A DNA stretch of 37,437 bases from Pseudomonadota bacterium (lineage in GTDB: Bacteria; Bdellovibrionota_C; UBA2361; OMII01). Location of the stretch: assembly GCA_900299035.1 (NCBI GenBank), contig OMIG01000034.1, positions 1 to 37,437 on the forward strand, in the 5' to 3' direction. Below, in pieces: positions 8,204 to 37,437 of this stretch (its first letter is position 1; each line of letters opens with the position of its first letter). The notes under the pieces are model-generated. The model did no database searches. It was not told the origin of the DNA and saw only the letters and a program-made list of their open reading frames with translations. The translations under genes and the position numbers were made by a program.

Positions 8204-10282
8204 CTACAGGAGCGGAGCGATGAGGAGCGAAAGAATCGAAACCATCTTGATGAGGATGTTGAGGGCTGGTCCCGAGGTGTCCTTGAAGGGATCGCCTACG
8301 GTGTCGCCAACAACCGCCGCCTTGTGGGCGTCGGAGCCTTTCTTCTCTCCCTCAACGAGCCCCTGCTCGATGAACTTCTTGGCGTTGTCCCAGGCGCCGC
8401 CGGTGTTCGACATGAAGATGCCGAGCACGACGCCGACTACCGTGGTGCCGAGGAGGAGACCTGCGAGAGCTGCTGGACCCATCGTGAACCCAACAACGAT
8501 CGGGGTGATGAGAGCGATCAGGCCCGGGGCCCGCATCTCGGTGAGCGCGGCCTTGGTCGAGATCTCAACGCAGCGGGAGACGTCTGGCTTGGCGCCTTCC
8601 TTGCCTTCGAGCAGGCCCGAGATCTCGCGGAACTGGCGGCGAATCTCGGTCACGATCATGCCGGCAGCCTTTCCTACCGACTGCATCGTGAATGCCACGA
8701 CGAGGCCCGGCAGGATTGCTCCAACGAACACGCCCATGACGAGCATCGGGTTAGTGATGCTCAGGTCGATCTTCTCGGCTGCGCCGGTGAAGGTCTGCGT
8801 GTAGGCGCCGAAGACGGCGAGTGCCGTGAGGCCGGCTGAGCCAATAGCGAAGCCCTTGCCGATGGCGGCAGTGGTGTTGCCCAGGGCGTCCAGCTTGTCG
8901 GTGATAGCGCGCGTGTCAGAGCCGAGGTGCGACATCTCAGAGATGCCGCCGGCGTTGTCAGCGATCGGGCCGTACGCATCGACGGTCATGATGATGCCCG
9001 TCGTTGAGAGCATCGCCACGCCTGCAAGCGCCACGCCGTACACGTCGCCGAAGTGGTGCGAGATGAGCACCGCCGCAACGATCAGGACGAGCGGAATTGC
9101 AACGCTGCGGAAGCCAACGGCGATGCCGTTGATGACGCAGGTGGCAGGGCCCGTCTTGGAGGCCGTGACGATCTCGAAGACCGGCTTGGATGAGGTGTAG
9201 TACTCAGTCGCAAGGCCGATCCCGATGCCGCACAGGGTGCCGAACAGAATCGGCATCCAGAGAGCGGTGGTGAGCGGCACGCTCGGGAGCAGCAAGAAGA
9301 TGCCGGCTGCGATGATGAAGAGCACCGAGGCGATCAGCACCGAGAAGCGCAGCGCCTTGGCCGGATCTCCGTCCTTGAGGAAGCCCATCCACTTGATGGC
9401 AACGAACGACGAAATTGCGCCGAACAGCCCGAGGATGAGCGGAGTTGCCATCAGCCAGAACTGACCAGTCTTGGCAGTCATCGCCGGGTCAACCTTGAGC
9501 AGGCGCATAATGTTTGCGTCGCTCATCGTGGCAGCCAGGGCGAGACAGCCGATGATGCAGGTAACGTACGACTCGAAGATGTCCGCGCCCATGCCGGCTA
9601 CGTCACCTACGTTGTCACCCACGTTGTCAGCGATAACGCCTGGGTTGCGAGGGTCATCTTCCGGGATTCCAGCCTCGACCTTGCCGACGAGGTCTGAGCC
9701 TACGTCTGCGGCCTTGGTGTAGATTCCGCCGCCTACGCGGGCGAAGAGGGCAACTGAAGAGGCTCCCATGGCGAAGCCGATGATCGGCTCGTGGCCCTTA
9801 ACGACGTCCTGAACTTCCTGCGGGAGGAAGTACAGGAAAAGTGCGCCTACGCCGATCAGGCCGAGCGCTGCAACGGTGAGGCCCATGACTGCGCCGCCGT
9901 TGAAGGCAACCATCAAGGCCTGTCCGGGCTGCTTATCGGAAGCTGCCTGGGCGGTGCGAACGTTCGCCATCGTGGCTGCCTTCATGCCGAGGAAGCCAGC
10001 GAGGAGCGACATGCCAGCGCCGAGCAGGAAGCACACAGCGGTCTCCCACTTGAGCATGTAGAGGATGGCGAGGAACGCCACGCCGATGAACCACGAGAGG
10101 TAGAGCGCCTGCTGCTTGAGGTATGCGAGCGCTCCATCGCGGATAGCGCCACTGATCTCCTGCATGCGGGCGTTGCCGGCAGGAAGGGCTTGGAGCGCAA
10201 CGTACATCCTGTACGCGACTATGAAAGCCAGCACACCGAACACCGGGGCGGCCCACGTTAAAACGGAATAGGTGGTAGACAT
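8204..10282 (-). CDS. hppA: Membrane-bound ion-translocating pyrophosphatase, apparently K+-dependent type
   Basis: DVGSDLVGKVEAGIPEDDPRNPGVIADNVGDNVGDVAGMGADIFESY, GNTTAAIGKGFAIGSAGLTALA, DNAGGISEM; 692 aa with many TM segments. Confidence 0.96.
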   Translation of the reverse strand: MSTTYSVLTWAAPVFGVLAFIVAYRMYVALQALPAGNARMQEISGAIRDGALAYLKQQALYLSWFIGVAFLAILYMLKWETAVCFLLGAGMSLLAGFLGMKAATMANVRTAQAASDKQPGQALMVAFNGGAVMGLTVAALGLIGVGALFLYFLPQEVQDVVKGHEPIIGFAMGASSVALFARVGGGIYTKAADVGSDLVGKVEAGIPEDDPRNPGVIADNVGDNVGDVAGMGADIFESYVTCIIGCLALAATMSDANIMRLLKVDPAMTAKTGQFWLMATPLILGLFGAISSFVAIKWMGFLKDGDPAKALRFSVLIASVLFIIAAGIFLLLPSVPLTTALWMPILFGTLCGIGIGLATEYYTSSKPVFEIVTASKTGPATCVINGIAVGFRSVAIPLVLIVAAVLISHHFGDVYGVALAGVAMLSTTGIIMTVDAYGPIADNAGGISEMSHLGSDTRAITDKLDALGNTTAAIGKGFAIGSAGLTALAVFGAYTQTFTGAAEKIDLSITNPMLVMGVFVGAILPGLVVAFTMQSVGKAAGMIVTEIRRQFREISGLLEGKEGAKPDVSRCVEISTKAALTEMRAPGLIALITPIVVGFTMGPAALAGLLLGTTVVGVVLGIFMSNTGGAWDNAKKFIEQGLVEGEKKGSDAHKAAVVGDTVGDPFKDTSGPALNILIKMVSILSLLIAPLL

Positions 10283-18903: not shown

Positions 18904-20451
18904 TTACGCGGCGAGCCCGCCGTTGCCGTCTCGAACGAACTCAAGCAGCTCAGCCAACATCTCGCGGTTGGTTATGATGCGCGGAACCTTGTTCTGCCCG
19001 CCGAGCTTCCCGCGCTTCTTCATCCACGCGGCGAATGTTCCCGCTGCAACCGGAAGGACCTGTGGGGCCTTCAAGCCAAATCCCCCAGAGCGGTGTGACT
19101 CGTAGTCCTCGTTGCGTTGGCAGAGCTTTCTGTCGAGCGCATCCGTGAAGCGCTGGAGCTGCTCGGCTCCTGGCTGCGAACCGCAGAACTCAACCACGTA
19201 GATGTGCCCACCGAGCTCGCCCGAACGCTCCGGGAAGACAGGACCTACCGTGAAGTCTGCGATCTCCGCAGCGATCTCCTTGGCGGCTGTGACGACGCCG
19301 TCCTCGACTTCCTCGGCGATCAGGTGTTCCCCGAACGCTGAGAGGTAGTACGAGGTGCGCCCCGTAACGAGCACGCGCGGCACCTTGGTGTCTACGAAGC
19401 GAACGGTGTCGCCGATGACGTACGACCAGAGGCCAGCGCAGGTGCTCATGACCACTGCGTAGTTGACGTCCGGCTCCACGTTGCCGATCCAGTGACGGGT
19501 TGGGGCAGGGCTCTCAAGCTCCTCCAGGGGCACAAACTCGTAGAAGATGCCGTGGTCGAGGTTCATGCGGAGCCCGTCGCCGTAGCCGCGGTCAGCAATC
19601 GCGAGGAATCCTTCGCTGGCCGGATACACCTCGCGCAGCTCAGCGTGGCCGCCGTCGAGCACGTCCTTGAAGCGCTGCAGGTACGGCGCGAAGTTGACGC
19701 CGCCGTGCACAACCATCTCGAGGTTCCTGTAGATGCTCGCGAGCTTCCCGGCGCCATCCGGGCTGAGCGAGGCGAGCTTGTCGAAAAAGATCAGGAGCCA
19801 GGCCGGCACGCCCGAGATCATCCGGATATCTTCCGAGAGCGAGAGCTGCGCGAGCGTGTCGACCTTCTCTTCCCAGTTCTTGATGAGCGCAAGCTCTGCG
19901 GGCGGGAAGTAGCGCGACTTGAGCCACCACGGGAGCGTCTTGACGGCTATGCCGCTCAGATCGCCGAAGAAGATTCCCGGTTTCGGCTCAGTTAGGTCCG
20001 TGCTGCCGCCCAGCATGAAGCTCTTGCCTCCGAGCAGTGACGACTTGGGGCGGTTTGTCACGTGGTGAACGAGCAGGTCGATGCCAGCCTTCGTGTTCGA
20101 CTTGAGCATGTCATCCGAGCACGGAATGTACTTCGTTGTGCCAGAGCTCGTGCCAGAGCTGACGGGGAAGAATCGAATGGTGCCCGGCCAGGTGCAGTCA
20201 GTGAGAGTTGGGAAGGGCTCCTTCCAGAACTCTTCCCAGAAGGCTTCGTACTTCCGCAGCGGAACGCGCTTCTGGTACTCCTCGATGGTTGCGATGGACG
20301 AGAAGCCGTACATGCGCCCGAAGGCGGTGTTGCGGGCCCGGTCAACGAGCCAGCGAAGCTGCTGTTGCTGCATCTCTTGTGGCGAGCGAGCGCGAAGCTG
20401 CTCGTTGCGCCAGCGAGCGTAGAGGCGAAGGAGGGGAGTAGCGTCGAACAT
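18904..20451 (-). CDS. GH3 (auxin-responsive promoter) family acyl-adenylating protein
   Basis: RNTAFGRMYGFSSI, RFFPVSSGTSSGTTKYIPCSDDML, YPASEGFLAI, YVIGDTVRF, LSAFGEHLIAEEVE. Confidence 0.9.
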   Translation of the reverse strand: MFDATPLLRLYARWRNEQLRARSPQEMQQQQLRWLVDRARNTAFGRMYGFSSIATIEEYQKRVPLRKYEAFWEEFWKEPFPTLTDCTWPGTIRFFPVSSGTSSGTTKYIPCSDDMLKSNTKAGIDLLVHHVTNRPKSSLLGGKSFMLGGSTDLTEPKPGIFFGDLSGIAVKTLPWWLKSRYFPPAELALIKNWEEKVDTLAQLSLSEDIRMISGVPAWLLIFFDKLASLSPDGAGKLASIYRNLEMVVHGGVNFAPYLQRFKDVLDGGHAELREVYPASEGFLAIADRGYGDGLRMNLDHGIFYEFVPLEELESPAPTRHWIGNVEPDVNYAVVMSTCAGLWSYVIGDTVRFVDTKVPRVLVTGRTSYYLSAFGEHLIAEEVEDGVVTAAKEIAAEIADFTVGPVFPERSGELGGHIYVVEFCGSQPGAEQLQRFTDALDRKLCQRNEDYESHRSGGFGLKAPQVLPVAAGTFAAWMKKRGKLGGQNKVPRIITNREMLAELLEFVRDGNGGLAA

Positions 20452-23505: not shown

Positions 23506-24598
23506 CGGAGCCTCTCGCAACGTCGAGCGGGTTGCGCAGTCGCTCTTCAGCGATTCCAGCGAGCGCCAGCGGTTCCTCGAAGCGCTCCAGTCTAAGGAGG
23601 CTTCCATCACCGCGGTTGCGGCGCTGCGCGGCGGGCTCTTTGAGGGCTCTTCGGCTCAGGGGCCGACTTGGCTGCCCGAATGGATCTCGGTGGCCAAGGA
23701 GGAGGAGCGCCCCGGCAAGAGCGACCGCCACGATCAGGGCGAGCTGTACTGCCTCGACCTGTCGTCAACATTCGCCTGCGCGGCGTACTCGCAGGTACAG
23801 GGCCCGGTCGGTGTGGCAGTCGACCTGTGCGCCGCTCCGGGCGGCAAGAGCATCGTGGCGAGCCGCTACCTCTCGCCGCGTTTCCTCGTGGCGAACGAAG
23901 TCATCCGCAAGCGAACAGCGCAGCTCATCTCAAACTACAAGCGCTGCCAGATCGACCCCTCAATCGTTACGTCGCGAGACCCGGGCAACCTCGCAAAGCT
24001 GATGCCCGAGGCGGCGCAGCTCGTGGTTGCCGATGTGCCGTGTTCTGGACAGTCGCTCGTGCTCAAGGGGCTGGCTGCGCCCGGCGCGTTCCATCCGGCA
24101 ACGATCTCGATGAATGCCCGGCGCCAGCGGCGAATCATGGCGTGCGCGGCACAGCTGCTCTCGCAGGGCGGCTACCTGCTGTACTCAACCTGCACCTTCT
24201 CGCGCGAGGAGAACGAGGAAAACATCGAGTGGTTCCTCGGCCGCCACCCAGAGTTCTCGGCAGTTGCAGTGCCGCTCCTAGATCCGTTCCGCTCTGCGCA
24301 CTCAGCGCAGCCTCTGTACCGGCTCTTTCCGCAGAGCGGCTTCGGCGCAGGAGCCTTCTGTGCGCTCCTCAGGCGCCACGGCGAAGCTAGTGCCGATGGA
24401 ATGGCGCGAACGATTGAGGACCTGACCGACACCATCAAGCCGATATGGCGCTCTCCGACCGTATTTAAGCTACTTCCCGCTCCCGTCAGGAGCGACGATC
24501 GCCAGGATGGCAGGAGGCCGGAGCGGCGGCAGCGGAAAGGAGGCTGGGATCGGGCTCGCGGGCGCGCGCAGCGATTTCGTGCCGACGATCACGAGTGA
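23486..24598 (+). CDS. RsmB/NOP family SAM-dependent RNA (cytosine-C5) methyltransferase
   Basis: DLCAAPGGKSIVASRYL, VADVPCSGQSLVLKG, GGYLLYSTCTFSREENEENIEWFL; ATG at 23486 overlaps the preceding stop by 20 nt. Confidence 0.9.
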   Translation: MPDERSSGASRNVERVAQSLFSDSSERQRFLEALQSKEASITAVAALRGGLFEGSSAQGPTWLPEWISVAKEEERPGKSDRHDQGELYCLDLSSTFACAAYSQVQGPVGVAVDLCAAPGGKSIVASRYLSPRFLVANEVIRKRTAQLISNYKRCQIDPSIVTSRDPGNLAKLMPEAAQLVVADVPCSGQSLVLKGLAAPGAFHPATISMNARRQRRIMACAAQLLSQGGYLLYSTCTFSREENEENIEWFLGRHPEFSAVAVPLLDPFRSAHSAQPLYRLFPQSGFGAGAFCALLRRHGEASADGMARTIEDLTDTIKPIWRSPTVFKLLPAPVRSDDRQDGRRPERRQRKGGWDRARGRAQRFRADDHE

Positions 24599-25276
24599 GA
24601 CGGGGCCGCGCAGCTCCCGCACCTCCACAGAGCCTCTCGCCGATACAACCGTAACTGAGAGAGCCTTGCCCGCTGCCAGCGCGCCGATCGATGCGTCGCC
24701 GCCGGAAACGATCAGCGAGTCACCCTGCACCTCAAGCACGCCAGACACCTCAAGCGTCCCTGGCGTGGCGAGCAGCGCAGGGCTTCCGGCGGTTGGCTCC
24801 GCCACCCTGAGCCAGTCAGCCTTGATGTTCTCAAGAGTAACGGCTGTTGCGGGGACGCTCCCCGTCATGCTGCAGGTGAGGCGCGCCACGGGAGAGGCAA
24901 ACGATCGCTGCCTGACAGCTTGAGGCGCAGACGGGCAGGGAGAGGCGCGCGAGAAGACGGCGTCAAAGTCGGGCCGCAGGCTAGGAAGAGCGACTCGTGG
25001 GTATGCGGTGACTGCTGGGAGTGCTTCGTAGCACACTGTTCGCTGCGCGTTGCCGTGCTGACTTCGCACGGTTAGCTGCGAGCATCGTCCCGGCGACGGC
25101 GCTGCAAGTGCCGCACTCTCAATCGCGTCAGCTTCTAGAGCTGCGCCGACTCGAGCGTGACGCCACGACTGCACGAGGCTCGTCGCGCGGTCGTGAAAGG
25201 CGCGCAGCATCGCCAAAGCGACTAAGCTCCCGGCTATAGCCAGCGGCAGCGTGTGGCCCCTACAGGATGTGGCCAT
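24470..25276 (-). CDS. PilX-like minor pilin-associated protein (putative)
   Basis: ATG at 25276: MATSCRGHTLPLAIAGSLVALAMLRAFHDRATSLVQSW; overlaps the stop of the upstream prepilin gene. The longer track ORF (25489) overlaps that gene. Confidence 0.6.
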   Translation of the reverse strand: MATSCRGHTLPLAIAGSLVALAMLRAFHDRATSLVQSWRHARVGAALEADAIESAALAAPSPGRCSQLTVRSQHGNAQRTVCYEALPAVTAYPRVALPSLRPDFDAVFSRASPCPSAPQAVRQRSFASPVARLTCSMTGSVPATAVTLENIKADWLRVAEPTAGSPALLATPGTLEVSGVLEVQGDSLIVSGGDASIGALAAGKALSVTVVSARGSVEVRELRGPVSLVIVGTKSLRAPASPIPASFPLPPLRPPAILAIVAPDGSGK

Positions 25277-26132
25277 AGTAGAGGCTCCCGCGCGCCACGG
25301 GGAACGGCGCAAGAAACGTTGACACTTGGCCGTGTGAGCCTCGCACCGTCGTTGAGAGCGCCACAGAGCCTCCAGCAGACGCGATTTCATCGAAGAGCAG
25401 GGCGCGCACGCCGCTCGCGAGCGGCTGGTTCTCTGTGATGCGGGCAGCTGTGTGGGAGGAGATGCGCAGCTGCTCCGTCCGATCGACAAAGAGCGAGTAC
25501 TCTCGGTTAACGGGTACGAGGCGGTGGAGCGAAGAGGGCAGGATGGCAGCCGGGTCGCTCACGAGCCCTGGGAGCGCATCTGCCACGAGCTCGACACACG
25601 ACGATGAGACAGTTCGCAGAGAGCCAGCGAGCTGCACCGGCCCAGAGACGCCTAGTGCCACGTAGCTCTTAAACTGCGAGGGCGCCGGGCGAGAGCTAAA
25701 TCCGCATGCGACGACGGTGACTGAGAGGCCGTCGATCGAGGCTTGCTCGATGGCGCCAGCGTAGTGTGGGGAGAGATCTAGGAACGAGATGACGTGTGAG
25801 TCCGGAGCAGGGGAAGACTTCCCGGAGAGGGCAGCCAACGGGTGTGCTGCCCCGTTCGGCAGCACGAGCGGAGCGCCCGGGCTCACAGTCACTGCAAACT
25901 GTTGCCGCGAGCGCCCGAGGGCGCGCACGCCCGCCCGCACGGCGGCTTCGGCCTGGGCGCTGACAGAGAGGTCAGAGATGGCGCTCATCGACTCACGGAA
26001 GGCGAGGCCCGAGGAGCCCAGCATCGCGCAGAGAGCCAGCGCCACCAACGAAGCAGCCCCGAGCGACGCTATGGTCTCAAGCAGCGTGAATCCTCGCTCT
26101 GACAAGAAGGGCACAGGCACATTTTGTTTCAT
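25260..26132 (-). CDS. Prepilin-type N-terminal cleavage/methylation protein (PilW/PulJ-like)
   Basis: MKQNVPVPFLSERGFTLLETIASLGAASLVALALCAMLG: G/FTLLE prepilin signature. Confidence 0.8.
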   Translation of the reverse strand: MKQNVPVPFLSERGFTLLETIASLGAASLVALALCAMLGSSGLAFRESMSAISDLSVSAQAEAAVRAGVRALGRSRQQFAVTVSPGAPLVLPNGAAHPLAALSGKSSPAPDSHVISFLDLSPHYAGAIEQASIDGLSVTVVACGFSSRPAPSQFKSYVALGVSGPVQLAGSLRTVSSSCVELVADALPGLVSDPAAILPSSLHRLVPVNREYSLFVDRTEQLRISSHTAARITENQPLASGVRALLFDEIASAGGSVALSTTVRGSHGQVSTFLAPFPVARGSLYYGHIL

Positions 26133-26422
26133 GGCACGTAGCTCCAAGCAGCTTTGCCACAGCCGCACCTGACAAGTGCTCCCGCAGCGCCGCAGCTTGG
26201 GCTTCTGCAAGCTGCCTCTGTTTCGGCGCGCGCGGCCGCAAGTGCTCTAGAGCTTCTGCCCATAAACAGCGCCAGCCCGAGTGAGAGGCAGGCGAGGATG
26301 CTGATGCTCACGAGCGGCTCGATCATCCCGAAGCCGCGCTGGGCGGGGGCTTGCGCAGGGGCGCGCCTTGCGGAGGCGCTGGCCCAGGGGCCCCTGTTGC
26401 TATGGGCGCCCAACACTAACAC
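26129..26422 (-). CDS. Prepilin-like protein (PilV-like)
   Basis: RGFGMIEPLVSISILACLSLGLALFMGRS with Glu at +5; ATGA overlap with the next gene. Confidence 0.68.
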   Translation of the reverse strand: MLVLGAHSNRGPWASASARRAPAQAPAQRGFGMIEPLVSISILACLSLGLALFMGRSSRALAAARAETEAACRSPSCGAAGALVRCGCGKAAWSYVP

Positions 26423-26832
26423 TGCACTCGCGTCCTCGCGCGCAATGAAACGACGAGAGTCGCCGAGAGCGCGCCGAGCGAGAGGGTGACTGTTGCGGGC
26501 GTCGCGGTGTGAGATGGGTAGAAGCTCAGCTCTCCTTCGATGTTCGCTGTCGTGCGCAGGGAGATGTCGGCAGGCAGCGGAAGGCGCTCGACGAGCGTGC
26601 CCTGAGGGTCTTTCAGCTCAGCGAACTGTGGCGTTAGGCGAACGGTGTGGACGCCCGCCGTCGCAAGGCTTCGGGTTCGGGCCCGGTCGAAGAGAAGCTG
26701 TAGCCGCCGCGACTCGCGGCACAGCCGTTGCGGCCGAGAGATGCTCGGCAGCCCCACGACTGAGATCGAGGCGAGCAGCGCAGCGATGGCGAGCGCAACC
26801 AGCAGCTCTGTGAGAGAGAACCCTTTTGGCAT
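26416..26832 (-). CDS. Prepilin-type protein (GspH/FimT-like)
   Basis: MPKGFSLTELLVALAIAALLASISVVGLPSISR; immediately upstream of the other three pilin-like genes. Confidence 0.82.
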   Translation of the reverse strand: MPKGFSLTELLVALAIAALLASISVVGLPSISRPQRLCRESRRLQLLFDRARTRSLATAGVHTVRLTPQFAELKDPQGTLVERLPLPADISLRTTANIEGELSFYPSHTATPATVTLSLGALSATLVVSLRARTRVQC

Positions 26833-26884: not shown

Positions 26885-27706
26885 CTACCCCAGGAGGCGG
26901 CTCACGATGCCGGCGTTGAGGCGGTTGCCCTGCGCCAGCACGGCCAGGGAGGCCTGCGCCATGATCTCTCGCCCCGTGTTGAAGGAGGTCTGCGAGGCGT
27001 AGTCGAGGTCTACGATGCGCGACAGGGCCTCAGACTCTCCGATGCGCTGGGAGCTGATGTTCTGTTGGATGGTGTCGAGGCGCGATTGCGATGAGCCGAT
27101 GAAGCTGCTGCGAACGTTGCCGAGGCTTTGCGAGAACTGCTGTATCGCTCCGATGGCCTGCTGCGCTCCTGCTTGGGTGCCGATGTTCTGGGAGGCCGCT
27201 TGGGAGACGAGCCCCGAGATGTTTGCGCCGCCGATCACGAGCTGCGACGAGGCGCCGCTGCCGTTTCCGACCTGCGCGGTGATCTGCGATCCGTCGAGTA
27301 GCTTTACCCCGTTGAATTGGGTTGTCTCTGCGATGCGGCCGATTTCTTGCGTGATGGAGTCGTACTCTGACTTGAGCGCAGCGCGCTGTTCGTCAGAGTA
27401 GGTTCCGTTTGCTGACTGGACGGCAAGCTCCTGTAGGCGCCCCGATAGATCCTGGATCTGGCCAAGCGAGCCATCGGCGATTGCCAAGGCCGAGCCTGCG
27501 TCGCGCACGTTGCGCGATGCAACGTCGAGCGTGCCGAGAGATGACTCAAGCTGGGCCGAGATTGAGAGCGCGGCAGCGTCGTCTGAGGCTCGGGTGATTC
27601 TGCGGCCGGATGAGAGCTTCGCGTAGGAGTCCGAAAGCTCCGAGAGGATCTTGTTCAGGTTGTTGATGCCAGAGAGCCCGCCAGAGAGCGGGCTGAGCTT
27701 TGCCAT
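26885..27706 (-). CDS. Flagellin (short, D0/D1-only type)
   Basis: N-terminal SGLSGINNLNKILSELSDSYAKLSSGRRITRASDDAAALSISAQLES... and C-terminal SRIVDLDYASQTSFNTGREIMAQASLAVLAQGNRLNAGIVSRLLG; no long central variable domain. Confidence 0.92.
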   Translation of the reverse strand: MAKLSPLSGGLSGINNLNKILSELSDSYAKLSSGRRITRASDDAAALSISAQLESSLGTLDVASRNVRDAGSALAIADGSLGQIQDLSGRLQELAVQSANGTYSDEQRAALKSEYDSITQEIGRIAETTQFNGVKLLDGSQITAQVGNGSGASSQLVIGGANISGLVSQAASQNIGTQAGAQQAIGAIQQFSQSLGNVRSSFIGSSQSRLDTIQQNISSQRIGESEALSRIVDLDYASQTSFNTGREIMAQASLAVLAQGNRLNAGIVSRLLG

Positions 27707-28130: not shown

Positions 28131-28592
28131 CTACTCTTCGTTCGAGAGAGGCGCGAGTGCTTCGTCCGGAAGTCCCAGCAAGTCCCTGAAGCGCCTGCGC
28201 AGGTAGATCTCCATCCCGTCCACAACTCCGTTGCAGCGGATGAGGCTGTCCATGACGCTGCCCATCGCACGTTTGGTTGTCGGGTCGAGGGTGTCTTTGA
28301 GCAGGGAGGCGAAACTTGAGCTGCTGCCCATGTTAGAGAGGTGCGCCCGTGCTCGCGCCACCAAGCCGGCGGCCGTTTCGTCTGAGATCTCAAAAAGGTT
28401 CTTTAAGCCGTGGTGAATGACAGACTTTTCAAAGCGGTCGACCTGGCTGTCCGAGGACGCTATCTCCATCAGGACGATAGCGGTTGCGAGCGAGAGGTCT
28501 GCTTTGTTCTTGAGCACAGCTTTGCGCTGCTGGAGCGACTGCATGTGCTGAAAAATCGCCTCAGAGCTTAATCCAGAGAAGGAGTTGTTCAT
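28131..28592 (-). CDS. TerB-like protein
   Basis: ATAIVLMEIASSDSQVDRFEKSVIHHGLKNLFEISDE...: acidic helical TerB-type repeat pattern. Confidence 0.65.
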   Translation of the reverse strand: MNNSFSGLSSEAIFQHMQSLQQRKAVLKNKADLSLATAIVLMEIASSDSQVDRFEKSVIHHGLKNLFEISDETAAGLVARARAHLSNMGSSSSFASLLKDTLDPTTKRAMGSVMDSLIRCNGVVDGMEIYLRRRFRDLLGLPDEALAPLSNEE

Positions 28593-28707: not shown

Positions 28708-29988
28708 CTACTGCAGCTTCTGGGCGAGCTTCTTGGCGGCGTCTGTGAACTTGCCGGGATCAAAGTGATTAGGGCTTTTGAGGGTCACAAAGAGCTTGTC
28801 GAGCAGGGACTTGTAACGCTTCGCCAGGTCGGGAGAGGTGGCCATCGCAGCCTGGATTCCCATGCCGATCTGCTCTGCAACTTCGTACTTCGGCGACTCA
28901 GCCGCCGCAGCGAACGTCGCCAGCTCTCGCATGACAGCAGCGCTCGTCTTCTCGCCTGGCTCAAGCTTCATGACGAGGGGGTGCACGCGCGACTTGAGCA
29001 GATCCTCCATCTTTCCGAGCGCATCTGAGGCGCCGTCAGCCTGGAACGATCCCTTAACCGAGACGACGAGCTGTCCTAGCTCTTCTGCCAGGGGACGGTC
29101 GAGCGCCAGGAGCGCGTGCTGCAGCATTACTAGCGGAGCGACGTTCACGTTCAGCTTACCAGGCTTTCCGCCGTACGTTCTGCTCTTCCACTGGTGTTCG
29201 TCTAAGTTGTGGTGGCACGAGAAGCAGTCAAAGACGCTCAACTCCGGGAAGGTTCCGTTGCGAGAGAGGGCTGGCGAGCGCAGCGTGGCAACGACTCCTT
29301 CGGCCAGGGTCTCTTGCCCGATGAACCAGGCTGCGAGCGGCGAGTAGGGGCCCTTGCGGCGCAGGTAGTCCTCGTCGACTACCCAGTGCTTCGGCTCTAG
29401 CACACCGTAGGTGTCGAGCTCAAAGCTCAGGCGCGGGTGGCCGGCGCCGTACAGGTCATGAGTGACGCGGCGGTCCTTGTCGCCGTAGTGGCACGAGACA
29501 CACAGCTGCGCGCGCTTGTCGAGCGAGACGGTGTCGGCGAGGCCGTTGGAGAGATTCTGTTGGTGCGTCGTGCCGAGAACCGCGTGCGTCTCAAGCCAGC
29601 GCTCCGCAGGACCGTGGCACGACTCGCACGACACGCCGTCCTCGGCGGAGTACTTCTCTCCGCGCTGCTCTGCGCTCGGGACGTAGGTCGAGTGGCACTT
29701 GAGGCACAGCGGCTCCTTTGCTGGATCGCCGAGGCCCATCAGTGAAGCCATGCGCTTGGCATCGGCCTTGAGCAGCACTGTGTAGGCCTGCGAGTGTTTG
29801 TCGTGCTTGAGCCAGGTGAAGTACTCGTTTTGGAGGACGTTGGAGCTCTTGCGGGCGTGGGTACTGCCGTGGCAGTTCGAGGATGAGCAGGTGCCTGTGC
29901 CCATGTACCTGTCGGGAGAGGCGGACGCCATCGCCGGAGCCAATAGGAGCACAGATATCAAAAGCTGTTTGATTTTGGAGATAGCCAT
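28708..29988 (-). CDS. Multiheme c-type cytochrome (cytochrome c554-like)
   Basis: Signal peptide from ATG 29988 (MAISKIKQLLISVLLLAPAMASA), four CXXCH (CLKCH, CESCH, CVSCH, CFSCH) plus one CX4CH (CSSSNCH); AAGGGA SD. Confidence 0.9.
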   Translation of the reverse strand: MAISKIKQLLISVLLLAPAMASASPDRYMGTGTCSSSNCHGSTHARKSSNVLQNEYFTWLKHDKHSQAYTVLLKADAKRMASLMGLGDPAKEPLCLKCHSTYVPSAEQRGEKYSAEDGVSCESCHGPAERWLETHAVLGTTHQQNLSNGLADTVSLDKRAQLCVSCHYGDKDRRVTHDLYGAGHPRLSFELDTYGVLEPKHWVVDEDYLRRKGPYSPLAAWFIGQETLAEGVVATLRSPALSRNGTFPELSVFDCFSCHHNLDEHQWKSRTYGGKPGKLNVNVAPLVMLQHALLALDRPLAEELGQLVVSVKGSFQADGASDALGKMEDLLKSRVHPLVMKLEPGEKTSAAVMRELATFAAAAESPKYEVAEQIGMGIQAAMATSPDLAKRYKSLLDKLFVTLKSPNHFDPGKFTDAAKKLAQKLQ

Positions 29989-30076
29989 CGTCCCTTCGTT
30001 GTTTGCTGTATCACCGAAAAGCGGGACGGTATCAAGCGCCAATATCGCAGGGCTTCTGCCTCACCCTCTCATGAGC

Positions 30077-30093
30077 TTGAATGCGCAATTCAA
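30077..30093. promoter_or_regulatory. Perfect dyad TTGAAT-N5-ATTCAA in divergent promoter region (putative regulator site)
   Basis: TTGAATGCGCAATTCAA in the 29989-30256 intergenic region. Confidence 0.45.
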
Positions 30094-30119
30094 CTTTCCC
30101 TGGTATCAGGCGTTTTAAA

Positions 30120-30148
30120 TTGCCACGCTGGAGATCGAAAATTATAGT
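30120..30148 (+). promoter_or_regulatory. Sigma70-like promoter for the redox operon
   Basis: TTGCCA-N17-TATAGT, one mismatch to each of TTGACA and TATAAT. Confidence 0.6.
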
Positions 30149-30256
30149 CAGGCAGCTGCGCTTACGCGTATGCGCTAATAAGTTCTGCCTCTCCCAGCAG
30201 ACACTTCGCCTTGAAGAGGAAAGGCCTCTCAAAGCGGGTGACTGCTCGTATGATCG

Positions 30257-32599
30257 ATGTCACAGCATTTTGAAATTGCGGTAATAGGAGCAGGCCCAGC
30301 CGGGATCGCCGCCGCCGCGAGCGCTGCGCACCACAAGATCTCCCACATTCTGCTGGAGAAGGGTGAGGTCGCCAACACGATCTACGACTACCAGCTCCGC
30401 AAGCACGTGATGGATGAGCCGGGCAGGCTGCCGCTGCGCGCGCACTGCCGGTTCGTGGCTGGCAGCCGAGAGAAGGTGCTGCAAGAGTTTAGCGAGGACA
30501 TCGCCAAGCATGCCGTGAACATGGTGCGTGCTGAGGTCACCGCCATCACCAAGAGCGGCGACCTGTTCCAGATATCGTACGGCGGGCAGTCGTGCACCGC
30601 AAAGCACCTGATCCTCGCGATCGGCGTGCAGGGCTCGCCGCGAAAGCTCGGAGTGCCTGGCGAAGACTCAGGGGCCGTCGCGTATACGCTCTCTGACCCT
30701 GACGCTTTCAAGGCGAAGAAGATGATCGTCGTCGGTGCTGGCGACGCAGCGATCGAGAACGCGCTTGCGCTCGCAGAGAGCAACTCGGTGGTGCTCGTGA
30801 ACCGAGGCTCCGAGTTTGCCCGCGCCAAGGACGCAAACTCAAAGCTCATTCTGGCTGCGATAGCCTCGGGAAAGATCCGCTGCCTGTACGGCGCAACCAT
30901 CTCGCGCCTCGAGGGGCAGAACGCCTTGATCAACACGCCAGATGGCGAGGTGACGGTGCCCTGCGACCAGGTCATTGCGCGGCTTGGTTGCGTGCTGCCG
31001 AGGAAGTTCCTGGAAGGTATCGGCATTCAGTTCCCGAGCGCCGACGCCAACTCGGTGCCTGTCGTCAATCGGCGGTATGAGTCAAACGTCCCTGGCCTCT
31101 ACATCCTCGGCGCGCTGATCGGCTACCCGCTGATCAAGCAGGCGATGAACCAAGGCTACGAGGTTATCGAGCACATTCGGGGCGAGCCGGTAGAGCCTGC
31201 CGACCAGCCACTGCTTGAGGAGCGCTTCGAGGGGCTGTCGGGAGGCTTCAGCCAGAACTCCCCGAAGATAACCCAGACCCTGCCGCTCTTTCAGGGCCTG
31301 AGCGAGCCGCAGCTCCGTGAGATGCTGATCGACTCCACGCTGCACGAGAAGCGCGCCGGGGACGTGGTGTTCGAGAAGGACGACTACACTGACACCTTCT
31401 TTAGCGTGGTGACTGGAAGCGTTGAGATTCTCATCGGCGGCGGCCGGAAGATTCGGCTCGCGCAGGGCGAGTTCTTCGGCGAGATGGGCCTTCTCTCTGG
31501 GCGGCGCAGGGTCGCCACGGCGGTTGCGGCGGAGAACGGCACGATCCTGCTTGAGACGCCGAGGAAGCAGATGCTCAAGCTGATCGCCTCAGTGGCGTCG
31601 GTCAAGCGCGCTCTCGACGAGCTGTTCATGTTCCGCGCCATGCAGACATCGATCTTCCCTGACACGCCAGAGGACTTCCTCAAGGCGCTCGTGCAGAAGG
31701 CGCAGATGAAGAGCTTCAAGAAGGGCGAGGTGCTGTTCCGTGAAGGAGAGCCCGGAGACGCCATCTACGTCATTCGAAAGGGATCCGTGAAGGTCTCTCG
31801 TCTCAACCGCAGCGGGGCAGATGTCGTTCAAACGTACGTGCCTGCTGGTCGCTACGTCGGCGAGATGGCCGTGCTGCAAGAGGAGAGCACGCCGCGCACC
31901 GCCACGTGCACCGCGGCAGTGGCGTGCGACACGATCCTCATAAAGAAGGAGGACGCACTGGCGATCCTCTCGCAGTTCCCAGACAACCGCAGGCGCGTCT
32001 TCGCCGTGGCCGATGAGCGCCGCGTGCAGAATGTCGTGACGGACTGGAGTGATGAGGCAGGCAAGCTGCTCGACTTCATGATGCGAGAGGGGCTCTCTGA
32101 CGCAGAGAACGTGCTCCTGATCGACTCGGACCGCTGCGTCGCGTGCGACAACTGCGAGGCAGCCTGCGCGGCGACTCACAGCGGCTACTCACGGCTCGAC
32201 CGCAAGGGGGGCAAGAGCTTCGCGGCGATTCAGCTTCCGATCTCTTGCCGTCACTGCGAGAACCCGCTGTGCATGACAGACTGTCCGCCGGATGCGCTCG
32301 TGCGGCAGGCCGACGGAGAAGTTGTCATTAAGGAATCGTGCATCGGCTGTGGCAACTGCGTGAGCAACTGCCCGTACGGCGTCATTAAAATCGTCTACGA
32401 CCACGCCTCAACGGGCTTCTCGCTCAAGGCGCTCCTCGGGCTCAAAAAGCCTGAGAAGGGCCCGGCCAAAGCGGCTAAGTGCGACATGTGCCACCAGCTG
32501 CCGGGCGGGCCGGCGTGCGTGAGGGCCTGCCCAACAGGCGCCGCCATGCGAGTCAACTCTAGCAAGCTGGTGCAGATAGCCGCCGGGAGGAGAGAGTAG
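30257..32599 (+). CDS. Fusion protein: FAD/NAD(P)-dependent oxidoreductase + two cyclic nucleotide-binding domains + 4x[4Fe-4S]-type ferredoxin
   Basis: IAVIGAGPAGIAAAASA and MIVVGAGDAAIENALALAE; CNB cassettes GEFFGEMGLLSGRRRVATAV and GRYVGEMAVLQEESTPRTATCTA; CVACDNCEAAC, CRHCENPLCMTDC, CIGCGNCVSNC, CDMCHQLPGGPACVRAC. Confidence 0.92.
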   Translation: MSQHFEIAVIGAGPAGIAAAASAAHHKISHILLEKGEVANTIYDYQLRKHVMDEPGRLPLRAHCRFVAGSREKVLQEFSEDIAKHAVNMVRAEVTAITKSGDLFQISYGGQSCTAKHLILAIGVQGSPRKLGVPGEDSGAVAYTLSDPDAFKAKKMIVVGAGDAAIENALALAESNSVVLVNRGSEFARAKDANSKLILAAIASGKIRCLYGATISRLEGQNALINTPDGEVTVPCDQVIARLGCVLPRKFLEGIGIQFPSADANSVPVVNRRYESNVPGLYILGALIGYPLIKQAMNQGYEVIEHIRGEPVEPADQPLLEERFEGLSGGFSQNSPKITQTLPLFQGLSEPQLREMLIDSTLHEKRAGDVVFEKDDYTDTFFSVVTGSVEILIGGGRKIRLAQGEFFGEMGLLSGRRRVATAVAAENGTILLETPRKQMLKLIASVASVKRALDELFMFRAMQTSIFPDTPEDFLKALVQKAQMKSFKKGEVLFREGEPGDAIYVIRKGSVKVSRLNRSGADVVQTYVPAGRYVGEMAVLQEESTPRTATCTAAVACDTILIKKEDALAILSQFPDNRRRVFAVADERRVQNVVTDWSDEAGKLLDFMMREGLSDAENVLLIDSDRCVACDNCEAACAATHSGYSRLDRKGGKSFAAIQLPISCRHCENPLCMTDCPPDALVRQADGEVVIKESCIGCGNCVSNCPYGVIKIVYDHASTGFSLKALLGLKKPEKGPAKAAKCDMCHQLPGGPACVRACPTGAAMRVNSSKLVQIAAGRRE

Positions 32600-32601
32600 C
32601 C

Positions 32602-33420
32602 ATGTCGCAGGAGACGTTCCTCAACTACCGGCGCTTTAAGTGGCTCTGGATAACAGCGGCGGCTCTCGTCGTGCTCACGATCATCTACGCTGTCGACCGC
32701 CCAATCGGCGGCCGCAACGGCGGCACAGCAGTTGGGTACACCTACGGCACGCTAGCGGCGCTCGGCATCGTGTGGCTGATGGCGTTCGGGCTCAGGAAGC
32801 GTTCCTACCGCTCCTCTCTCGGAACGCTCGAAGGGTGGCTTGCGGCGCACGTGTGGATTGGACTTGGTCTGCTGCTGCTTGTGCCGCTGCACTCCGGGTT
32901 CAGCTTTAGCTGCAACGTCCACACGCTCGCGTACCTGTTGATGGTCGTCACGATAGTGACCGGGATCTGGGGCGCTGCAAACTACTCGACGCTCTCGGCC
33001 CGCATCTCGGCCCACCGCGGAGGGGCGAAGGACGAGCTCGTGGTGGAGCGCATCCAGGACCTGAGCGACCAGGCAGAGCAGCTCTGCCGCGGCAAGAGCG
33101 AGGCGTTCTTGAAGCTCTACAACGAGTTCTGCGTGCCATTTAAGCCTTCGCTTGGCTGGATTCTGCTCAGGAGCCGGCAGCCCAAAGTCGACGCGAGCGC
33201 CGCCAGCGGCATGCTGTCGGGCGTTGCCGAGGGCGAGCGTGCCGACGCCGTGAGCATGATCGGGCTGCTCGACCAGCGGCTCGACATGCTGCGCAGCCTG
33301 GCCGAGCAGGCCCGCATTCGGGCGCTGCTTCGGGTTTGGCTGTACGTCCACGTGCCGGTCTCGTTTGCGCTCTGCGTGGCGCTCGTTGTCCACATCTTCT
33401 CAGTTTTTTACCTCTGGTAG
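32602..33420 (+). CDS. Cytochrome-b-like integral membrane protein
   Basis: About five TM segments with in-membrane His (AAHVWIGLGLLLLVPLHSGFSFSCNVHTLAYLL; YVHVPVSFALCVALVVHIFSVFYLW); 2-nt gap to the upstream CDS. Confidence 0.75.
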   Translation: MSQETFLNYRRFKWLWITAAALVVLTIIYAVDRPIGGRNGGTAVGYTYGTLAALGIVWLMAFGLRKRSYRSSLGTLEGWLAAHVWIGLGLLLLVPLHSGFSFSCNVHTLAYLLMVVTIVTGIWGAANYSTLSARISAHRGGAKDELVVERIQDLSDQAEQLCRGKSEAFLKLYNEFCVPFKPSLGWILLRSRQPKVDASAASGMLSGVAEGERADAVSMIGLLDQRLDMLRSLAEQARIRALLRVWLYVHVPVSFALCVALVVHIFSVFYLW

Positions 33421-33423
33421 CTC

Positions 33424-35103
33424 ATGGCGTTCGGATTTCGCTTCATACACGAGAAGAGCTCCGGTACCGGCGCATCAGAGCGGCGGGTTGTTGACCTCCA
33501 GCAGAGGGAAGTGATCTTTGGCCGCGGCGGCGCGTCTCACGTGCTGCTTTCGAGCCACAAGGTAGGGACCGAGCACGCAAAGTTCTTCTGGGATGGCGAG
33601 AAGCTCCTGGTAGCAGACTTAGCATCGCCTACCGGCGTGCGAGTGAATGGTCGGCTGGTGAGCCGGGCAGAGCTGCACGACGGCGACACGGTGCTGCTGG
33701 GAGATGTCGAGCTTACGTTGAGGCTCGACGGCTCAATTGCGGAGCTCACCTGGCTTGAGGCGCCGCAGGCATCGATTCCCGATGCTGAGCGCATCGCGTC
33801 GGCGGTAGGGAAGCTGCGTGTTGACTCGTACCTGCCGTCGATTCGGGCTCTCTCGATTGTGCTCGTGGCGCTCGGCACGGTGGCTTGGCTCGCGTACCCA
33901 CTAGGCACCAGCAGCAAGCGCCAGTGGAGCTCAGGGCCGATCTCGAGCCAGCACAAGCTGATCGAGAATGACTGCGTGAAGTGCCACGCTGAGCCGTTTA
34001 AGCCAGTTCGGGACCAGGAGTGCCAAGCATGCCACTCGATGAGTGAGCACGCGCAAGGCTACAGCACCTTCGTGTCGCAGCACGCGGGGCTTGAGATGCG
34101 CTGCGCGCAGTGCCACATGGAGCACAACGGCGACCACGCCCTCATCTCGCGTGACCAGCGGTTCTGCACCTCCTGCCATGCCGAGATGTCAAAGCTCAAG
34201 CCGGGCGCGGATATCGAGGACGTGTCCTCCTTTGACCAGCACCCACAGTTCCGGATAGAGGTGCGCGACGCGCTCGGAGCAGTGACAAAAGTCAGCCTCG
34301 ACGACTCAAGCCGCGCAAAAGACTCCTCTCAGATAAAGCTCAACCACAAGCTGCACCTCAAGCAGGGCCTTGAGGGAAAAGACGGCCCGGTGACGCTTGA
34401 GTGCTCGGCGTGCCACCAGCTCGACGAGAACTTCAAGCAGCTCAAGCCGATAGAGTTCGACAAGCACTGCCGCGACTGCCACTCACTCGGCTTTGACGAG
34501 CGGCTGCCCGAAGCGGAGGTGCCGCACGGTGACTCTGAAGCGGTGTTCCCGGCACTCTTTGCGGCCTACTCGCGGGTGGTGCTGCTGGGCGAGGACCAGT
34601 CGCTGCCCAACCCGGCTCGTGACATGGAGCGGGACAAGCCCGGAGACCTCGACCCAGAGCCCGCTCAGATCGAGGGCAGCGGCGTGTCAGCTGTAGTCGA
34701 GAACGCCCGAGAAGCCGAGCGGCAGCTCTTCACCCGGACTGGGTGCTTCCTGTGCCACTCGTACAAGGAGAAGCCTGAGCTTCTACAGACCTCAACCAAC
34801 TCTCACTACGAGGTGCTGAAGCCAGGAGTTCCAAATGTGTGGTTCACGGCAGCCCGCTTCAGCCACGGGGCACACGAGGAGTTCACCTGCGAGTCCTGCC
34901 ACGAGAAGACTCGGGAGTCGACCCAAACCTCAGAGCTGCTCCTTCCCGGCAAGAAGATGTGCCAGGACTGCCATGCATCGGGAAGGCGCCAGGGTTACGT
35001 CTCTTCTGACTGCGTGGAGTGCCATTCGTACCACGACTCTCTTGGTTTTCCGCACGAAAAAAAGCAAGATATCGCCTCGTACATCAAGGGCCTAACTAGG
35101 TAG
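33424..35103 (+). CDS. FHA domain - TM - decaheme c-type cytochrome
   Basis: FHA motifs (EVIFGRGGASHVLLSSHKVGTEHAKFFWDG...VNGRLV), TM RALSIVLVALGTVAWLAYPLG, then ten CXXCH motifs (CVKCH, CQACH, CAQCH, CTSCH, CSACH, CRDCH, CFLCH, CESCH, CQDCH, CVECH). Confidence 0.92.
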   Translation: MAFGFRFIHEKSSGTGASERRVVDLQQREVIFGRGGASHVLLSSHKVGTEHAKFFWDGEKLLVADLASPTGVRVNGRLVSRAELHDGDTVLLGDVELTLRLDGSIAELTWLEAPQASIPDAERIASAVGKLRVDSYLPSIRALSIVLVALGTVAWLAYPLGTSSKRQWSSGPISSQHKLIENDCVKCHAEPFKPVRDQECQACHSMSEHAQGYSTFVSQHAGLEMRCAQCHMEHNGDHALISRDQRFCTSCHAEMSKLKPGADIEDVSSFDQHPQFRIEVRDALGAVTKVSLDDSSRAKDSSQIKLNHKLHLKQGLEGKDGPVTLECSACHQLDENFKQLKPIEFDKHCRDCHSLGFDERLPEAEVPHGDSEAVFPALFAAYSRVVLLGEDQSLPNPARDMERDKPGDLDPEPAQIEGSGVSAVVENAREAERQLFTRTGCFLCHSYKEKPELLQTSTNSHYEVLKPGVPNVWFTAARFSHGAHEEFTCESCHEKTRESTQTSELLLPGKKMCQDCHASGRRQGYVSSDCVECHSYHDSLGFPHEKKQDIASYIKGLTR

Positions 35104-35115
35104 CGAGTGCCTCAC

Positions 35116-37005
35116 ATGAAAAACACCCCTGCACGTCTCCTGTCAGCGGCTATGACTCTTTCAGTAACCCTGGCCGGATGCGGCGGTGGTTCAGGCTCAA
35201 GCGGCTCCAGCAGTGGCGGCGATCCGAACGCCAACTTTAACTGCGACGGAGGCTGCGCGAACCAGTCGCTCTCGGCTGAGGATGTAACAACGATCTTGCG
35301 TCAGGCGATAACGGCAGCCAACAACCTCGGCACCGCAGGAACGTTCGCGGTCGTCGACCGCACGGGAAACGTGCTCGCGCTGTACCAGATGAATGGAGCG
35401 CCGCTCACGACCGTAATCAATGGCCAGACGGGAGCCACCGGGCCGCTCGAAGGGCTCGCTGTTCCGTCAACGCTGGCAGCGATCTCGAAAGCCGGTACAG
35501 GAGCGTACCTCAGCTCTCAGGGGAACGCCTTCTCGACGCGCACCGCTGGGCAGATCATCCAGCAGAACTACCTCCCTGGGCAGCGCCAGCAGCCGGGCGG
35601 GCCGCTCTTCGGCGTGCAGTTTTCGCAGCTAATCTGCAGCGACGTCACCCGCGCCAACGGAGCGACCGGCCCGCGGCCGTTGCCGCTCGGACTATCGGCT
35701 GACCCGGGTGGCTTTCCGCTCTACAAGCAGGGCGACCCAGTGGGCGGAATCGGGGTCGAGTTCGACGGCCTCTACACAATAGACCCTGACATGCAGAACT
35801 ACGATGCAGACCCCGAGGAGGAGGTGGCGCTCTCGGCGAGCGTTGGGTTTGAGGCTCCAGCACAGCGCGTTGGCGACAGTATCTCCCTTGCTGGCCGTTC
35901 GCTTCGCTACTCCAACACGAGCTACTCTGAGATCGTCGTGCCGACGGATCTTGCGCCGCTCAATCCGGCAGGCCTGAAGTCTCAGCCTTCGTACACCAGC
36001 GGCGGCATCCGCCCGGGCACGACCTTCGGCACTGGGCCCTCAGGCATCGCCGACACCGTGAAGGCAGGGCTTCCTGCGGCTGTTGTCACGGGACGGTTCC
36101 CAACGATAGGAGGCCGGCCGCTCCCCGGAGGAGAGCAGCTCTCGGCGTCCGAGGTGAACGCGCTGCTTGACTCGGCGCTCATCACGGCCAGCAGGGCGCG
36201 CTCCGCTATCCGCACGCCGCTCGACACGGCGGCGCGCGTGTCTATCTTCGTCGTCGACAACTTAGGAAACCCGCTCGGCTTCATTCGCTCTCAGGACGCG
36301 CCGGTGTTCGGCGTCGATGTGGCGCTCCAGAAGGCGAGAGCTGCGGCATTCATGAGCTCTGCAGACGCAGGCTCGACCCTGTCAGCGGGAGGGCTCGGCG
36401 GCTTTGCTTCATCGTTCGCCGCGTTCACGGGCACCTCTCTGGACGGCAGCCACGCCATCTCTTCGCGAGCAGTCGGAAACGTCTCTCGCCCGTTCTTCCC
36501 GGACGGCATTAACGGGAACTCAAACGGGCCATTCTCGCTTCCGTTCCCTGGAACCGCTCCTGGCCAGAGCTGGTCGGTCTTCAACACAGGGCTGCAGCTC
36601 GACCTGGTGCTTGGCGGCTTCACCGGCCCGATCTTAAATCCGGGCTCGGTTCCCAACGGCTGCACGAACGGCGCCTTCGGCAGCCGAGTCAAGAACGGCA
36701 TACAGATCTTTCCGGGCGCGGTTCCGCTGTACCGCAACGGCGTGCTGATCGGCGCGGTCGGAGTGAGCGGAGACGGCGTCGACCAGGACGACATGGTTGC
36801 CTTCTACGGAGCCAGCAGGCGCGGGCTCGACTACGCGGGGTACACCACGGTTGGCGATGCCACGCTCGGCTTCAACTCGCCTAACGCGATCCGCTCAGAC
36901 CTCATTGAGCCGCAGCCCAATGCGAGGCTGAGGTACGTCAACTGCCCCGAGGCGCCCTTCAGTGGCAGCAACGAGCAGGGAGTGTGTGTCGATGGAGAAG
37001 GCTAG
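35116..37005 (+). CDS. Lipoprotein with two GlcG/HbpS-like (heme-binding family) domains
   Basis: ATG 35116, lipobox LAGC; TFAVVDRTGNVLALYQMNGA and RVSIFVVDNLGNPLGFIRSQDAPVFGVDVALQKARAAAFMSS; GAVPLYRNGVLIGAVGVSGDGVDQDDMVAF. Confidence 0.83.
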   Translation: MKNTPARLLSAAMTLSVTLAGCGGGSGSSGSSSGGDPNANFNCDGGCANQSLSAEDVTTILRQAITAANNLGTAGTFAVVDRTGNVLALYQMNGAPLTTVINGQTGATGPLEGLAVPSTLAAISKAGTGAYLSSQGNAFSTRTAGQIIQQNYLPGQRQQPGGPLFGVQFSQLICSDVTRANGATGPRPLPLGLSADPGGFPLYKQGDPVGGIGVEFDGLYTIDPDMQNYDADPEEEVALSASVGFEAPAQRVGDSISLAGRSLRYSNTSYSEIVVPTDLAPLNPAGLKSQPSYTSGGIRPGTTFGTGPSGIADTVKAGLPAAVVTGRFPTIGGRPLPGGEQLSASEVNALLDSALITASRARSAIRTPLDTAARVSIFVVDNLGNPLGFIRSQDAPVFGVDVALQKARAAAFMSSADAGSTLSAGGLGGFASSFAAFTGTSLDGSHAISSRAVGNVSRPFFPDGINGNSNGPFSLPFPGTAPGQSWSVFNTGLQLDLVLGGFTGPILNPGSVPNGCTNGAFGSRVKNGIQIFPGAVPLYRNGVLIGAVGVSGDGVDQDDMVAFYGASRRGLDYAGYTTVGDATLGFNSPNAIRSDLIEPQPNARLRYVNCPEAPFSGSNEQGVCVDGEG

Positions 37006-37010
37006 CCGGG

Positions 37011-37437
37011 ATGACTGAGCCTCACGCTTCACGTCCCCGGTCTCGGGGAGTTGGGGCAGCCGAGAGGTTCTCGGCTCGGGGCTCTCTCGGCGCAGCGATG
37101 TCGCTGGTCCTCTGTTTTACTGCAGAGGCCGCCTGGGCAGAGCCTCAGGCGGAAGAGCACGTTCCGCGCGAGGCCCTGGAGCGGCAGTTCCCGGACAAGG
37201 AAGCCGAGGCCTTTCCTGACTACATCTACGAGTCGATACCGCCAATCCAAGACTCGGCCTCCGAGTTCATCGCAATCCCCGACCGCTGGAGAATGTTTTA
37301 CGCCGGCAAGTACTACGACCCCTACAACCAGAACGTGCTCAAGGCCGACATTCCCGTGTTCGGAAAGCCAGGGCAGGAGTGGTTCGTTGAAACTTCTGCG
37401 ATCTCCGACTCCATGTTTGAGACGCGGCGCATCCCGG
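37011..37437 (+). CDS. Exported protein, 3' truncated by window (possible outer-membrane protein)
   Basis: Open frame from ATG 37011 to the edge: MTEPHASRPRSRGVGAAERFSARGSLGAAMSLVLCFTAEAAWAEPQAEEHV...IPDRWRMFYAGKYYDPYNQNVLKADIPVFGKPGQEWFVETSAISDSMFETRRIP; missing from the ORF track. Confidence 0.75.
   Translation, partial: MTEPHASRPRSRGVGAAERFSARGSLGAAMSLVLCFTAEAAWAEPQAEEHVPREALERQFPDKEAEAFPDYIYESIPPIQDSASEFIAIPDRWRMFYAGKYYDPYNQNVLKADIPVFGKPGQEWFVETSAISDSMFETRRIP

Follow-up and report, generated by a model that had tools for sequence, protein, structure and literature searches.

Among described systems, the closest to the one reported here is PCC4, a putative porin-cytochrome c complex predicted to act as a conduit (He et al. 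2017, PMC5566968). PCC4 comprises a porin and three multiheme cytochromes, which carry 4, 5 and 10 heme motifs, and in its subgroup II an Fe-S (PF13247) gene lies upstream of the gene for the inner-membrane protein (IMP). The IMP of both PCC3 and PCC4 has five transmembrane (TM) helices, SGXXG on TM4 and two WX3HX13H motifs, and PCC3 also has extracellular and periplasmic cytochromes with median 34 and 21 hemes, plus a porin. Cyclic nucleotides are absent from the main text on PCC4 (He et al. 2017, PMC5566968). We analyzed an operon at the end of contig OMIG01000034.1; the window is this whole contig of 37,437 nt (G000:C34:1-37437), taken from a 3.0 Mb, 276-contig assembly. The operon includes genes for a flavoprotein-ferredoxin fusion with two cyclic nucleotide-binding (CNB) domains, a b-type cytochrome (cytochrome b), a decaheme cytochrome with an FHA domain (FHA-decaheme), an HbpS-like lipoprotein and an outer-membrane barrel, and a cytochrome with four CXXCH motifs and one CX4CH (4+1-heme) is divergent from it. 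We consider it moderately probable that these genes encode an NAD(P)H-fed, cyclic-nucleotide-gated electron conduit across the cell envelope.

The original prediction for this DNA, an undescribed electron-transfer operon with cyclic-nucleotide sensing, phosphothreonine sensing and 15 c-type hemes, had placed its genes in 28708-37437. Each of its open reading frames (ORFs) was found at its coordinates, and ORF, Pfam and motif checks bear out the domains, their order and the tight spacing as well as the general claim of an electron-transfer operon. The Pfam domains are Cytochrome_C554; Pyr_redox_3, two cNMP_binding and 4Fe-4S; FHA and Cytochrome_C7/c3; and HbpS-like. The gaps within the operon are 2, 3, 3 and 5 nt, the final one on the assumption that the truncated gene starts at ATG 37011. 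The count of 15 hemes holds for the window, to which the divergent cytochrome contributes five motifs and the FHA protein 10 CXXCH, and is incomplete for the system, as the operon is interrupted by the contig end ahead of its outer-membrane half. On a second contig of the same genome (C10, 5055 bp) lie the remainder of the barrel gene and a frame of 1246 amino acids with ten CXXCH, termed the decaheme-propeller below. When aligned to the relative L014 the ends of the two contigs lie ~290 bp apart, a joining based on synteny and not on reads. The full system would then have about 25 c-hemes plus two b-hemes.

A search with the fusion returned 410 relatives in a species-level genome collection. 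We kept 79 loci, from Gamma-, Beta- and Alphaproteobacteria records and from relatives of the window organism, with nearly full-length fusion matches at 46-79% identity. By profile searches, 39 of the 79 have the order fusion, cytochrome b, FHA-decaheme, HbpS, barrel, decaheme-propeller, and 13 have a rotated order in which HbpS, barrel, decaheme-propeller and 4+1-heme cytochrome precede the fusion. Among the 47 loci that extend 9.5 kb or more downstream, 37 have the standard order complete. Such recurrence in dozens of unrelated species puts the predicted gene arrangement far beyond chance, and the co-occurrence in other genomes on which the original prediction had been made to depend is found in both sets of loci. 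The association also holds in reverse, with the cytochrome b present in all 11 further Gammaproteobacteria that were found through the decaheme-propeller alone. The decaheme-propeller occurs in 12 of 274 sampled Gammaproteobacteria; a close cytochrome b occurs in 17 of 190 sampled Alphaproteobacteria, and 11 of the 16 newly found genomes with such a cytochrome b also have the decaheme-propeller. Records with the system that bear the names of cultured organisms include Alcanivorax sp. 1008, Colwellia echini, Panacagrimonas perspica, Oceanibacterium hippocampi and Solimonas sp. SE-A11. Two loci, L019 and L028, have the first three genes only, followed by other downstream genes. One genome, G350, has two window-type copies.

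The fusion consists of a TrxR/YpdA-like FAD-NAD(P) domain (residues ~1-320), two CNB domains (~350-590) and a HydN/DmsB-like ferredoxin with four 4Fe-4S cysteine sets (~620-765). In an alignment of 91 fusion sequences, all 16 Fe-S cysteines are invariant, as are GE...RR of CNB1 (G408/E409/R416-R418) and GE...R.A of CNB2 (G535/E536/R547), in 91 of 91 sequences. Both CNB domains have the Glu and Arg of a phosphate-binding cassette, and the prediction that they bind a cyclic nucleotide is supported by this invariance. Because the genome has three genes with a Guanylate_cyc catalytic domain, a cyclic nucleotide is likely made in this organism. The FAD and NAD(P) motifs of the FAD domain are conserved. 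No conserved cysteine occurs in residues 1-320 of the same alignment, which rules out a thioredoxin or bacillithiol disulfide reductase. The domain resembles the flavoprotein half of ferredoxin-NAD(P) reductase, and the conserved Arg and Lys in NRxxEFxRxK, after the second nucleotide motif, suggest NADPH as the substrate. The CDMCH of the fusion is not a heme site, being part of the 4Fe-4S ligand run C742/C745/C754/C758.

The membrane protein agrees with what is described for the IMP, with [S/T]GXXG between two WX3HX13H. The histidines H83/H97 and H250/H264 are invariant, and W79-H83-H97, W246-H250-H264 and G121/G124 are invariant or nearly so among 69 sequences, with Ser or Thr preceding Gly. 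These ligands support the b-type membrane step that had been proposed. The charge pattern would place the N-terminus and the long 130-240 loop on the cytosolic side, where the loop would give the Fe-S domain a docking site; the number of TM helices was judged from hydropathy and the positive-inside rule only.

In the FHA-decaheme, the ten CXXCH are invariant or nearly so across 61 sequences, and outside the taxonomic order of the window organism the protein is mostly less than 35% identical. Of the phosphothreonine-binding signature GR...SXXH...NG, GR is present in 58 of 61 rows and His in 49. The position of the phosphothreonine-binding Ser holds Gly in the window, and among 57 homologues Ser occurs there once and the Arg expected after it not at all; two relatives within the same taxonomic order (L016 and L017) lack most of the FHA domain. 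For these reasons the phosphothreonine sensing that had been proposed is rejected, and a structural or docking role for the FHA domain is more likely. The five heme motifs of the 4+1-heme cytochrome are all invariant in 37 homologues. Its likely start is the internal ATG 29988, ahead of a signal peptide, in preference to TTG 30042. A 4+1-heme cytochrome was found in 12 of 12 genomes checked and adjoins the operon in several.

The lipoprotein has no heme motif, and 134 of its positions are at least 95% conserved in 59 sequences. The last gene of the window is ~600 amino acids long in relatives, heme-free and without a Pfam match, and its product ends in ...YSVLxNLxLTY/F, an outer-membrane protein signature. 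AlphaFold2 models the complete relative from L014 as an 18-strand barrel (predicted TM-score 0.73). In the PDB, the best matches to this barrel are AlgE and OprD-family porins. On this model, assessed on the L014 relative with the signal peptide judged by eye only, the truncated gene is predicted to encode an outer-membrane beta-barrel, which supports the proposed reach of the system to the outer membrane. The decaheme-propeller has LVIVD repeats at its C-terminus. Its propeller is modeled with confidence by AlphaFold2, and its heme part, modeled without heme, is poor (mean pLDDT 50). A fold search with this model gave only generic beta-propellers as best matches, and a PDB sequence search gave nothing useful. 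At ~55-65% identity between classes, it is the most conserved component of the system, above the electron-supply genes.

The relation to PCC4 is seen in four weak matches of the cytochrome b profile in Alphaproteobacteria. The neighborhoods of these matches (L127-L130) correspond to the description of PCC4, with 4-, 5- and 10-heme cytochromes, a porin, an Fe-S gene before the IMP gene and a redox gene before the tetraheme gene; L127 is a fragment only, and L128 has no Fe-S gene. We call them PCC4-type by architecture, set against the paper's description and not its sequences. The Fe-S gene of these clusters encodes a CNB-4Fe4S protein with a match to the fusion profile, in its CNB/Fe-S part, at E about 1e-61, and Fer4_11 is found in the window fusion, in agreement with the Fe-S gene of PCC4 subgroup II. 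The PCC4-type IMP, decaheme and tetraheme match the cytochrome b, FHA-decaheme and 4+1-heme profiles with E about 1e-13 to 1e-20 (about 1e-20 for the IMPs and 2e-20 for the tetraheme). The barrel, HbpS and decaheme-propeller profiles have no match in the PCC4-type clusters, and the barrel profile finds no porin there at E up to 10. The heme counts also differ from those of PCC4, being 4(+1), 10 and 10 CXXCH in the window system, with no pentaheme homologue in typical clusters. By these profile matches, the inner-membrane half is homologous to that of PCC4 and the system is best described as a sister variant with a different outer-membrane module. Of the claim that the system is undescribed, the part concerning the outer half stands. 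In the literature searched, which did not include subscription journals or preprints, we found no description of the AlgE-like barrel, the decaheme-propeller and HbpS as an outer half, and no paper joining CNB, FHA or LVIVD with multiheme cytochromes. Because the Fe-S protein of L127-L130 has CNB domains, cyclic-nucleotide control may extend to PCC4.

Two hybrid loci, L135 and L136, have the fusion, cytochrome b and FHA-decaheme together with a PCC4 pentaheme and porin in place of HbpS, barrel and decaheme-propeller; a third, L137, is like them without the fusion. The hybrid pentaheme is 59-64% identical to that of L128, and the hybrid porin 47-48%. A PCC3-like cluster, L141, has heme-rich ORFs with 21 and 23 CXXCH together with a related IMP; its Fer4-Pyr_redox_3 flavoprotein is a relative of the fusion. 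Given the hybrids and the related IMP of L141, the inner-membrane base and the outer-membrane module are separable and appear to have been recombined. In one gammaproteobacterium (L140, G393:C1:341000-352000), a PCC4-type cluster directly adjoins the decaheme-propeller gene of a window-type system.

From these parts we infer an electron route, its outward direction, its gating and its end point. NAD(P)H would reduce the FAD of the cytosolic fusion, and electrons would pass from FAD through the four 4Fe-4S clusters of the same protein, reaching the di-heme b protein on its cytosolic side. The two b-hemes would carry them over the inner membrane to the membrane-anchored FHA-decaheme in the periplasm, where the 4+1-heme cytochrome may act as a shuttle. 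The terminal site would be the outer-membrane module of AlgE-like barrel, HbpS lipoprotein and decaheme-propeller. The tandem CNB domains lie between the FAD and Fe-S parts, and cyclic AMP or cyclic GMP bound there would switch the intramolecular hand-off.

Several points weigh against such a conduit. The MtrB barrel has 26 strands. The present barrel model has ~18, which makes it doubtful that a cytochrome is threaded through the lumen. A non-specific surface electron donor would not usually be as conserved as the decaheme-propeller, a hint that this protein has a specific partner. It also has no lipobox, and with its heme part so poorly modeled its location is not fixed. We know of no experiment on PCC4 or on the window system. 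Neither direction of flow is dictated by the sequence. The function of PCC3 was stated to be untested as late as 2025 (PMC12442390).

The size of the barrel and the conservation of the decaheme-propeller make a substrate-specific terminal enzyme the main rival to the conduit, one that we judge somewhat unlikely. The decaheme-propeller and HbpS would then form the catalytic unit of an outer-membrane or periplasmic redox enzyme, the inner genes would only supply electrons, and the substrate passing the AlgE-like barrel could be, for instance, heme, an organic compound or a ferric chelate. The 134 near-invariant positions of HbpS beside the divergence of the FHA-decaheme would fit such an enzyme, as would the annotation of the HbpS family as heme-degrading and the resemblance of the barrel to the substrate channels AlgE and OprD. 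Many host names also fall in groups that we take to be aerobic plankton or hydrocarbon and steroid degraders. However, we found no known catalytic signature in the decaheme, and its fold is matched by nothing more specific than other propellers. The hybrids, too, pair the same inner module with the different outer module of PCC4, which fits a general electron supply.

Electrons could also flow inward, entering from an external donor such as Fe(II) or Mn(II) through the outer-membrane module and ending on quinone or, by way of the fusion, on NAD(P)+. This is the direction hypothesized for PCC3 and PCC4 (He et al. 2017, PMC5566968), the inner module of PCC4 is homologous, and the b-type membrane protein could also face quinone. 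We nevertheless consider inward flow improbable, given that an NAD(P)H-flavin domain fused to a ferredoxin makes NAD(P)H the natural source, that reduction of NAD(P)+ by electrons at the level of Fe(II) needs energy input, and that the host names do not suggest metal oxidizers. In a regulatory sensor, the CNB and FHA domains would respond to signals and the hemes would detect the redox state of the envelope. The placement of two CNB domains and one FHA fold along the electron path would fit such a sensor, but we consider it very improbable given an operon with no kinase, cyclase, response-regulator or DNA-binding output, an FHA domain that does not look phospho-binding and a complete chain of electron carriers with invariant ligands.

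If the conduit is real, a single dedicated operon connects NAD(P)H oxidation in the cytosol with the cell surface, and a second messenger can switch it. To our knowledge, this holds for no extracellular electron transfer system. The system is common and occurs in records that bear the names of cultured organisms, so it can be tested, and it would tie PCC3, PCC4 and the window system into one modular family. More tentatively, and at clearly less than even chance, we propose that a cyclic-nucleotide-switched supply feeds a new, conserved outer-envelope enzyme for a single substrate, composed of decaheme-propeller, HbpS and AlgE-like barrel, in hundreds of mostly aerobic proteobacteria, and that PCC3, PCC4 and the window system are interchangeable output modules on a common NAD(P)H/b-heme inner-membrane base.

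Table 1. Genes of the predicted electron-transfer system and other features of the window
Feature	Coordinates	Strand	Basis or remarks
Exported 4+1-heme cytochrome, Cytochrome_C554 family	28708..29988	-	Divergent from operon; ORF extendable to TTG 30042
Cytosolic FAD-CNB-CNB-4x[4Fe-4S] fusion	30257..32599	+	Pfam, motifs, 410 relatives
Inner-membrane di-heme b cytochrome	32602..33420	+	WX3HX13H on two helices, [S/T]GXXG
FHA, one TM helix (136-163), periplasmic decaheme c-type cytochrome	33424..35103	+	Pfam, 10 CXXCH
Lipoprotein with two HbpS/GlcG-like domains	35107..37005	+	LAGC lipobox, Pfam
Predicted outer-membrane beta-barrel protein, N-terminal part, cut by contig end	37011..37437	+	C-terminus of relatives, AlphaFold2
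TerB-family gene	28131-28592	-	
Flagellin gene	26885-27706	-	
Several small proteins with prepilin-like N-termini	24470-26832	-	GFTLLE, GFSLTE, GFGMIE
GH3-family protein (acyl-adenylate/amino acid conjugating type)	18904-20451	-	
Open frame of 792 amino acids	12465-14843	+	No Pfam match
Membrane H+-pyrophosphatase	8204-10282	-	

The other features in Table 1 are observations on the rest of the window. The TerB-family gene lies between the flagellin gene and the 4+1-heme cytochrome, a position kept in L014 and L015. The flagellin gene adjoins the run of small prepilin-like proteins, which are possibly a minor pseudopilin set. GH3-family proteins such as the one encoded here are uncommon in bacteria.

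In its general idea, a periplasmic decaheme with an outer-membrane barrel and a further cytochrome, the system is like MtrCAB, MtoAB and PioAB, but it has an NAD(P)H-flavin input in place of a CymA-type quinol dehydrogenase. We rejected membership of the Mtr group, given an 18-strand AlgE/OprD-like barrel and no MtrA, MtrB or MtrC/OmcA family match above cut-off (24 and 21 bits for TIGR03508, against a cut-off of 192). The Ext (selenite/tellurite), DMSO and nitrite reductase complexes gave only sub-threshold matches to single heme stretches, and the Irc cluster of Sideroxydans, with mono- and diheme cytochromes only, was set aside. The NADPH oxidases and ferric reductases (NOX/FRE) are alike in having NAD(P)H-FAD inside and two b-hemes on HX13H helices across the membrane; homology is not shown, and in the window system electrons would go on to multiheme c-cytochromes and the outer membrane. 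The YpdA/TrxR-like ferredoxin-NADP reductases have the fold and motifs of the FAD domain in common with the fusion, which differs from them in being joined to two CNB domains and a four-cluster ferredoxin and in having no redox-active CxxC. PCC3 has an IMP of the same kind, and the PCC3-like L141 has a flavoprotein similar to the fusion. PCC3 differs in its giant low-complexity cytochromes, and the L141 cluster showed neither a CNB domain nor HbpS nor a propeller cytochrome; with 10 hemes in each of the two large cytochromes, the window system is not a PCC3. With PCC4 the system has in common a homologous IMP, a CNB-4Fe4S protein or domain encoded upstream of it, a decaheme, a tetraheme and an outer-membrane barrel in the cluster. 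PCC4 has its own pentaheme, a porin without detectable similarity to the present barrel and a separate FNR/Fer2-type flavoprotein, whereas in the window system the FAD domain is of the TrxR/YpdA type and belongs to the fusion, the inner decaheme has an FHA domain, and the outer half consists of HbpS lipoprotein, AlgE-like barrel and decaheme-propeller.

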